DNA of 64,000 bases from Bacteroidia bacterium. Lineage in GTDB: Bacteria; Bacteroidota; Bacteroidia; J057. Shown here piece by piece: positions 19,121 to 19,321 of this stretch. Numbering within the stretch: position 1 is the stretch's first letter; the number at the start of each line of letters is the position of its first letter. The notes beneath the pieces were generated by a model. That model ran no database searches, was not told the DNA's origin, and saw nothing but the letters and a program-made list of their open reading frames with translations. The DNA lies in assembly GCA_030430575.1 (NCBI GenBank), contig JAUIKF010000021.1, positions 1 to 64,000 on the forward strand, written 5' to 3'. Position numbers and translations under genes: made by a program.

Positions 19121-19166
19121 AGTAGATTCAACCCAGAACATAAAACCTAGAACCTAAAACCCAAAA

Positions 19167-19200
19167 CTAGAAAAGACGCGATTCATCGCGTCTTTTCTAG
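19167..19200 (-). terminator. Perfect palindromic terminator behind the tRNA-like gene
   Basis: CTAGAAAAGACGCGA-TTCA-TCGCGTCTTTTCTAG is a 15-bp perfect stem located just 3' of the minus-strand tRNA-like gene. Its core GACGCGAT/ATCGCGTC is the same as in the hairpins at 47855-47884 and 49624-49657. A word tract (CCTAGAACCTAAAACC, 19140-19166) precedes it. Confidence 0.7.
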
Positions 19201-19206
19201 TTTTGC

Positions 19207-19318
19207 TGTAGGGGAAGGAGTCGAACCTTCACGAGGTGGTTAGCCCAGATTACCAGATTTTTCCCGATCCCTCACCCTCGAGACAAGAGGGCATGGCTGC
19301 CTATTTCATCACCCTACA
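19207..19318 (-). tRNA. Non-canonical tRNA-like gene, 112 nt, very long variable region
   Basis: Read on the minus strand it forms a cloverleaf. Acceptor TGTAGGG/CCCTACA is 7 bp. The D arm is ATG/CAT with a GG-containing loop, as in Leu/Ser tRNAs. The anticodon stem is CCCTC/GAGGG with loop TTGTCTC, and the T arm is GAAGG-TTCGACT-CCTTC with a consensus T loop. Between anticodon and T stems is a region of about 44 nt, including a GAGG/CCTC stem, far longer than in normal class II tRNAs. The literal anticodon is GTC (Asp), which conflicts with the Leu/Ser-type body, and position 37 is T rather than a purine. Discriminator is G; CCA is not encoded. A strong terminator follows. Decoding identity is uncertain; it may not act in translation. 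Confidence 0.6.
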
Positions 19319-19321
19319 GTA

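Follow-up and report, generated by a model that had tools for sequence, protein, structure and literature searches.

The locus described here lies in a 64,000-nt stretch of DNA from a Bacteroidia bacterium (the window) and raises the question of what is served by an RNA that has the build of a tRNA, an aspartate anticodon, and the long variable (V) arm of a class II tRNA. The original prediction had placed this gene at 19207-19318. The locus was correct, but the end was one base short, having been set at A72 rather than at G73 (Table 1). As predicted, the acceptor, D, anticodon, and T arms are all well formed, with G18G19 and the T loop UUCGACU; the variable region, estimated at about 44 nt, is exactly that length; and GUC, U37, and the discriminator G73 are all present. 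U8 was also found. The acceptor stem has 7 bp and the T stem 5 bp, and an eighth pair, C-1:G73, is possible. U33 is present, but position 37 is not a purine. C74 is encoded, as it is in 18 of 18 ordinary tRNAs examined from the same genome.

Table 1. Features of the tRNA-like RNA and its surroundings in the window
Feature	Position	Strand	Remarks
tRNA-like RNA, nt 1-73	19206..19318	-	113 nt; U1 = 19318, G73 = 19206; 95 full members known
Flanks of the tRNA-like RNA	C-1 at 19319, C74 at 19205	-	
Acceptor stem, 5' strand UGUAGGG	19312..19318	-	U1 pairs with A72 (19207), G2 with C71
D arm AUG / loop AAAUAGGCAGC / CAU	19293..19309	-	Without U20a by the numbering used here
Anticodon arm CCCUC-UUGUCUC-GAGGG	19275..19291	-	GUC at 19284-19282, C38 at 19280
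44-nt variable region	19231..19274	-	4-bp stem 19273-19270 / 19236-19233
Variable region beyond the V stem	19231..19274		Bulge, short stem (imperfect in the window), conserved internal loop, apical helix
T arm GAAGG-UUCGACU-CCUUC, acceptor 3' strand CCCUACA, and G73	19206..19230	-	
Terminator-like hairpin, 3' of the RNA	19164..19203 (approx.)	-	Strong hairpin in the window
Divergent AsnC/Lrp-type regulator gene, 159 aa	19571..20050	+	PF01037, PF13412, PF13404

Standard tRNA detection, which had been suggested as a check, did not resolve the locus as any tRNA. Neither ARAGORN nor the Rfam model RF00005 called one at 19206..19318, and RF00005 matched 61 other places in this 8.16-Mb genome. The single-sequence fold was not better than those of shuffled sequences (z = -0.56). 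The other suggested check, for conserved copies in relatives, was positive: a DNA search of 100 genomes gave matches in 18, its own included, and in 9 of the 12 others of the same genus or family. A covariance model (R1) was built from 17 sequences, that of the window included, and run on 395 genomes of the class. The R1 matches listed fell into two groups, one of 109 to 177 nt at 73.9 to 130 bits and one of about 78 to 89 nt at no more than 64.5 bits; the shorter-group match in the bacterium's own genome was tRNA-Leu GAG (61.4 bits). The long form was present in at least 67 of the 395 genomes, a count that could miss weaker members, the matches being listed down to about 57 bits. The window and 76 fetched loci gave 95 full members at 76 loci, belonging to these 67 genomes and two further relatives, with one locus (L171) contributing only a cut-off piece. 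A pattern scan of named genomes returned at least 119 stretches, and all 80 of those listed had an R1 match of at least 72.9 bits. Among the listed genomes were Chitinophaga, Mucilaginibacter, Pedobacter, Algoriphagus, Cyclobacterium, Dyadobacter, Spirosoma, Neolewinella, and Saprospiraceae, together with one MAG labelled Ignavibacteriales. Adjoining full copies at two loci, weak R1 matches were seen that are possibly decayed second copies (L104:2329-2431, 27.6 bits, and L099:9618-9732, 28.5 bits). No paper on this RNA was found in the literature searched, where subscription papers were mostly outside reach and bioRxiv was not covered.

The anticodon is GUC in 90 of the 95 members found by R1 (which was trained on GUC sequences, so that some anticodon bias is possible), and C38 is present in 92. 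The four other readable anticodons are CUC (L125 and L140) and UUC (L106 and L165). The pattern used to collect the named-genome and viral sets itself contained GUC and C38, which makes the counts at these positions circular there. All other position counts were taken from 185 distinct bacterial sequences parsed by script, unless stated otherwise. U1-A72 was found in 184 of these, G2-C71 in all 185, U3-A70 in 176, and G73 in 184. Variation is seen in pairs 4-69 to 7-66, with the pairing mostly retained. In the D arm, U11-A24 occurs in 171 sequences and C11-G24 in 14. The pattern of a decoding tRNA, U33 with a purine at position 37, was not observed: of the 94 loops that could be read, 77 have U at position 33, 15 have G, and 2 have C (17 with G or C), and position 37 is U in 153 sequences, C in 18, G in 13, and A in 1 (a pyrimidine in 171 of 185).

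The V arm ranges from 35 to 103 nt across the family. Its 4-bp stem is complete in 99% of 118 thinned bacterial V arms compared to 17% of shuffles. The bulge is 4 nt long in 141 of the 185 sequences and is followed by a 3-bp stem of several pair types, which was found at a fixed place in 64% of the thinned arms and in 5% of shuffles. The internal loop is most often GAUAAA / CUAA, and an insert, GGRUNGACCAC, is present in the V arm of 70 of the 185 sequences.

Signals for transcription were found on both sides of the gene. A terminator-like hairpin lies within 120 nt downstream in 55 of the 95 members, the window included, compared to 6.8 expected from shuffles; the terminator that had been taken to suggest real transcription thus recurs in the family. 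Upstream, 62 of 94 members have a TAnnTTTG box, a Bacteroidetes promoter motif, within 120 nt (8.6 expected), and no exact form was seen by eye in the window. These data support the predicted specialised tRNA with signs of its own transcription. The gene is real, its conservation and the pairing of its V stem lie far beyond chance, and it is not decaying. The arms, whose absence in relatives would have indicated decay, are conserved across the family, and this conservation refutes the suggested tRNA pseudogene.

The identity elements of the RNA were compared to those given in the available text of PMC9976931, which names G73, G34, U35, C36, and C38 as strong determinants for aspartate. All five are present in the window RNA and kept in the family. 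The further aspartate elements G10 and G1-C72 are replaced in the window by A10 and U1-A72. According to the same text, U1-A72 confers amidation of Asp-tRNA-Asn and serves for glutamine as well, while G1-C72 and U20a on tRNA-Asp prevent amidation. With respect to these GatCAB determinants, the RNA has U1-A72, lacks G1-C72, and lacks U20a (in the window, by the numbering used here). In the bacterium's own genome, which has at least three ordinary tRNA-Asp genes, the ordinary tRNA-Asp has G1-C72 and U20a (numbering used here), and tRNA-Asn has U1-A72. Compared to bacterial tRNA-Asp, the RNA shares GUC, C38, G73, and G2-C71 but differs by U1-A72 in place of G1-C72, by the lack of U20a, by the long V arm, and by the mostly pyrimidine position 37. 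By its sequence, the RNA joins two identity sets, the AspRS determinants and the GatCAB pair U1-A72. A long V arm is also shared with the allo-tRNA or tRNA-Sec-like group, and GUC occurs among the anticodons of some allo-tRNAs; the acceptor branch of these is 8/4 or 9/3 in the available text of PMC7609411, and membership was rejected as that of the RNA is 7/5.

The gene divergent from the RNA in the window encodes an AsnC/Lrp-type regulator, for which the best NCBIfam model is AsnC NF008384 at 163 bits, below the cut-off of 227. When 1201 open frames around the 76 loci were clustered, this regulator was found at 46 loci, always on the opposite strand, and the next-largest cluster covered 8 loci. 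Counting one truncated copy, the divergent regulator is present at 47 of the 76 loci, and three of those without it (L096, L105, and L170) have less than 250 nt of upstream sequence. Across the 395 sampled genomes, 65 of the 67 that carry the RNA have an ortholog of the regulator, defined by at least 200 bits with profile A3, versus 25 of the 328 others. In 8 of these 25 RNA-less genomes, an asparagine synthetase gene scoring over the curated cut-off adjoins the regulator, being asnB in G118, G268, G291, G370, and G381 and archaeal-type AsnA in G189, G234, and G344. The surroundings of the regulator were fetched from 20 of the 25, in which the facing gene is AsnB at L445, L447, L449, and L454 and archaeal-type AsnA at L444, L448, and L453, in agreement with the gene coordinates; G291 was added from these coordinates, outside the 20 loci. 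Two AsnB and two archaeal-type AsnA proteins were also scanned directly, with 3p8t as the PDB relative.

The 20 RNA-less loci were also searched with R1 without filters, which gave one RNA, L457 at 32.5 bits. By eye, this stretch (L457:1769-1883, upstream of the AsnC-like gene) has kept the acceptor and T arms and not the D and anticodon arms. Where the RNA would otherwise lie, upstream of the regulator, other possibly structured stretches were seen by eye at L451, L455, and L459, and what appear to be remnants of a promoter and terminator at L446, L450, and L452. In the remaining six of the 20 loci, nothing was recognised by eye upstream of the regulator, part of L461 consisting of N.

Standard asnB (NF006949, E up to 1e-100) occurs in 50 of the 395 genomes, in none of the 67 with the RNA, and in 10 of the 25 RNA-less genomes with the regulator. 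Counts for gatB, GlnRS, AsnRS, AsnA, and archaeal-type AsnA cover a panel of 80 genomes, namely 40 of the 67 RNA-carrying genomes, the 25 RNA-less genomes with the regulator, and 15 RNA-less genomes without it that were chosen as asnB negative; G377, which carries one of the CUC forms (L140), lies outside the panel. In these three groups, respectively, archaeal-type AsnA was found in 0/40, 3/25, and 0/15, AsnA in 1/40, 4/25, and 0/15, gatB in 40/40, 17/25, and 11/15, and GlnRS in 24/40, 8/25, and 5/15; AsnRS was found in all 80. The only RNA-carrying panel genome with AsnA is G203, whose RNA (L125) has the anticodon CUC. Unlike G203, the two genomes with the anticodon UUC, G340 and G176, have none of the three synthetases.

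A genome that has both AsnRS and GlnRS does not need GatCAB for decoding. Among the 37 panel genomes with both enzymes, gatB was present in 24 of 24 with the RNA versus 2 of 13 without it (Fisher 9e-8, a value that overstates independence because the genomes are related). The two RNA-less genomes concerned are G243 and G031, the latter with a weaker match in a 1120-aa frame. Within family f1, the five RNA-carrying panel members have gatB and none of the three synthetases, and RNA-less G009 has AsnA and no gatB. Within family f47, the same was found for the four RNA-carrying panel members, and three RNA-less genomes without gatB all have AsnB, two of them also AsnA. Family f42 is an exception: in RNA-less G243, GlnRS, GatB, and the regulator are present and all three tested synthetases are missing. 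In total, these synthetases are lacking in 10 of the 25 RNA-less genomes with the regulator, two of which have no gatB, and in the 15 RNA-less genomes without the regulator (chosen as asnB negative). AsnB-like paralogues over the TIGR01536 cut-off gave no contrast, being present in 34/40, 23/25, and 15/15 of the three groups; at E 1e-78, TIGR01536 was absent from six RNA-carrying genomes (G001, G176, G255, G301, G311, and G340). The copy in the bacterium's own genome lies on the same contig, outside the window, where by eye it adjoins an epimerase-like gene and is near glycosyltransferase-like genes. This setting is as in a polysaccharide cluster, but the paralogue could make asparagine.

The best explanation of these data, and one that we consider probable, is that the RNA is a dedicated, probably nondecoding carrier tRNA for AspRS/GatCAB-dependent asparagine synthesis. 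What the data show are the conservation and structure of the RNA, the two identity sets, the linkage, the distribution complementary to that of standard asnB, and the presence of gatB. A role in asparagine synthesis had not been proposed in the original prediction and is suggested by the conserved AspRS set in combination with U1-A72. Charging, amidation, release, and regulation, which we infer, would proceed as follows. AspRS would charge the RNA with aspartate, reading GUC, C38, and G73. GatCAB may then amidate the RNA-borne aspartate, yielding asparagine, since U1-A72 is the pair typical of the tRNA-Asn acceptor end and the tRNA-Asp antideterminants G1-C72 and U20a are absent. The asparagine freed from the RNA would supply the cell in place of an asparagine synthetase, release being conceivable by spontaneous hydrolysis, by an enzyme, or by the V arm itself. 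No dedicated release enzyme was found, and there is no candidate for this step. Control of the RNA gene in response to asparagine supply probably lies with the divergent AsnC-type regulator.

A tRNA serving outside protein synthesis is known from Staphylococcus, where a nonproteinogenic tRNA-Gly serves cell-wall synthesis. It is likewise set apart from decoding for metabolism, with another amino acid, enzyme, and product. Closer to the proposed carrier is the tRNA-dependent route of Bdellovibrio, Deinococcus, and Thermus, in which, according to the available text of PMC4206432, aspartate on an RNA with U1-A72 is amidated by GatCAB. In that route, however, aspartate is carried by the ordinary decoding tRNA-Asn, and a nondiscriminating AspRS is needed; with a separate RNA bearing an Asp anticodon, the first step would be open to an ordinary AspRS. 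The same text gives 18 genera, Bacteroidetes among them, with AsnRS, GlnRS, GatCAB, and no asparagine synthetase and suggests that asparagine is made on tRNA-Asn by a relaxed AspRS. For the Bacteroidetes cases, a separate carrier RNA is an alternative to that route.

Several findings count against the carrier tRNA. These are the AsnB-like paralogues in most RNA-carrying genomes, the RNA-less genomes that have none of the three synthetases, G243 among them, and G340 and G176 with their UUC anticodons. In addition, tolerance of the long V arm by AspRS and GatCAB is only presumed, the window has A10 in place of the listed Asp element G10, and 6 of 72 phage sequences, short and long forms both, have A1-U72.

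These phage sequences come from contigs catalogued as viral, in which a pattern scan gave at least 120 stretches. Of the 80 listed, 79 have an R1 match of at least 58 bits, and these comprise 72 distinct sequences; since ordinary tRNAs reach 64.5 bits with R1, score alone does not settle the weaker matches. The GGRUNGACCAC insert is present in 58 of the 62 viral copies of at least 105 nt. ARAGORN, run on 15 viral loci, gave arrays with an ordinary tRNA-Asp and tmRNA at L320 and L330, an array with tRNA-Asp at L370, and several tRNAs plus tmRNA at L340. Three partial proteins were scanned with PHROGs, and one was a phage DNA polymerase (L303) while two matched families of unknown or doubtful role. 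A blast search of three phage sequences against named phages matched a single record, a 636-kb uncultured phage without annotation. No strong conserved neighbor was seen around the 72 viral copies. The most widespread cluster of proteins (25 loci) was rejected as it looks by eye like spurious frames antisense to tRNAs, and the next is a small membrane-like protein (15 loci).

Some further observations were made on these contigs. One of them, L369, encodes by eye a TonB-receptor-like protein and may be cellular. A perfect palindrome of at least 8 nt was found in 53 of 62 viral V arms compared to 26% of shuffles, with differing sequences (e.g., L363, L358, L316, and L339), while bacterial V arms had no excess (42/185 versus 23% in shuffles); the viral palindromes could form kissing dimers. 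Four viral copies (L364, L362, L361, and L302) have an apparent extra hairpin inside the D loop by eye, and short forms of 94 to 96 nt at L296, L297, and L310 were named tRNA-Asp by ARAGORN. A second odd, long tRNA-like RNA, with the acceptor AGUCAGG/CCUGACU and no clear anticodon arm by eye, was seen on three viral contigs that carry the RNA (L313:7682-7831, L317:4587-4707, and L322:4906-5050). In the bacterium's own genome, a dense array (L172; G000:C119:180242-186475) with 28 tRNA-model matches, a further tRNA-Asp among them, resembles the tRNA arrays of phages or mobile elements.

The alternative that survives best is that the RNA is regulatory, its charged state (Asp or Asn) being sensed, for example, by the AsnC-like protein or GatCAB and governing the uptake or use of asparagine rather than its synthesis. 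This we consider unlikely. It agrees with the divergent linkage to the AsnC-type regulator, with a conserved V-arm motif that could bind protein, and with the AsnB-like paralogues in 34 of 40 RNA-carrying genomes, but by itself it leaves unexplained both the synthetase gene found opposite the regulator in 8 of the 25 RNA-less genomes and the occurrence of asnB in none of the 67 genomes with the RNA. It is very improbable that the RNA is an unusual tRNA-Asp isoacceptor active in translation. The complete cloverleaf with GUC, the U33 of 77 of 94 readable loops, and the phage copies within tRNA arrays at some of the 15 scanned loci would be expected of one; however, an ordinary tRNA-Asp is present in the same genome and beside the RNA at the viral loci L320, L330, and L370, 171 of 185 sequences have a pyrimidine at position 37, U1-A72 stands in place of G1-C72, and the RNA is linked to asparagine genes. 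We give hardly any credence to a Glu-to-Gln carrier acting through GluRS and GatCAB, even for some members. The four Glu-type anticodons that point to it form a weak pattern because every change at position 34 except to A yields a Glu anticodon, and GUC is present in 90 of 95 members. In the available text of PMC9976931, U1-A72 serves Gln too, but the Glu elements G1-C72 and U2-A71 given there are missing from the RNA.

Charging by SerRS or LeuRS, by which the RNA would misread Asp codons as the original prediction had it, is barely credible and was rejected. The long V arm is common to tRNA-Leu and tRNA-Ser, and the closest other R1 match in the bacterium's own genome is tRNA-Leu GAG. The RNA nevertheless has G73 rather than the Leu determinant A73, and its A72 and mostly U11-A24 (171/185) misfit the bacterial Ser set of C72 and C11-G24 (PMC9976931, available text). 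It differs from class II tRNAs also by GUC and by a V arm with an internal loop and, in many members, the insert, and the conservation of GUC and C38 would be needless. A decaying pseudogene, for which the sole point is that standard detectors miss the RNA, can be practically discounted given the strong conservation, the pairs kept through change, and the upstream and downstream signals.

The preferred reading is therefore a carrier tRNA for asparagine synthesis. A broader proposal is offered tentatively, with rather less than even confidence: a nondecoding, reusable carrier tRNA would replace the protein asparagine synthetase in many Bacteroidota families, the V arm would bar the Asn-RNA from the ribosome and help release, and large phages would carry the RNA as an auxiliary metabolic RNA. 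For annotators, the finding is an RNA family that ARAGORN and the Rfam tRNA model missed here. If the carrier is confirmed, a tRNA would act as a purely metabolic carrier, uniting the identity sets of two enzymes, AspRS and GatCAB. It would offer a possible route to asparagine for many Bacteroidota and a reason for those with both AsnRS and GlnRS to retain GatCAB, and it would point to a possible metabolic RNA in large phages.
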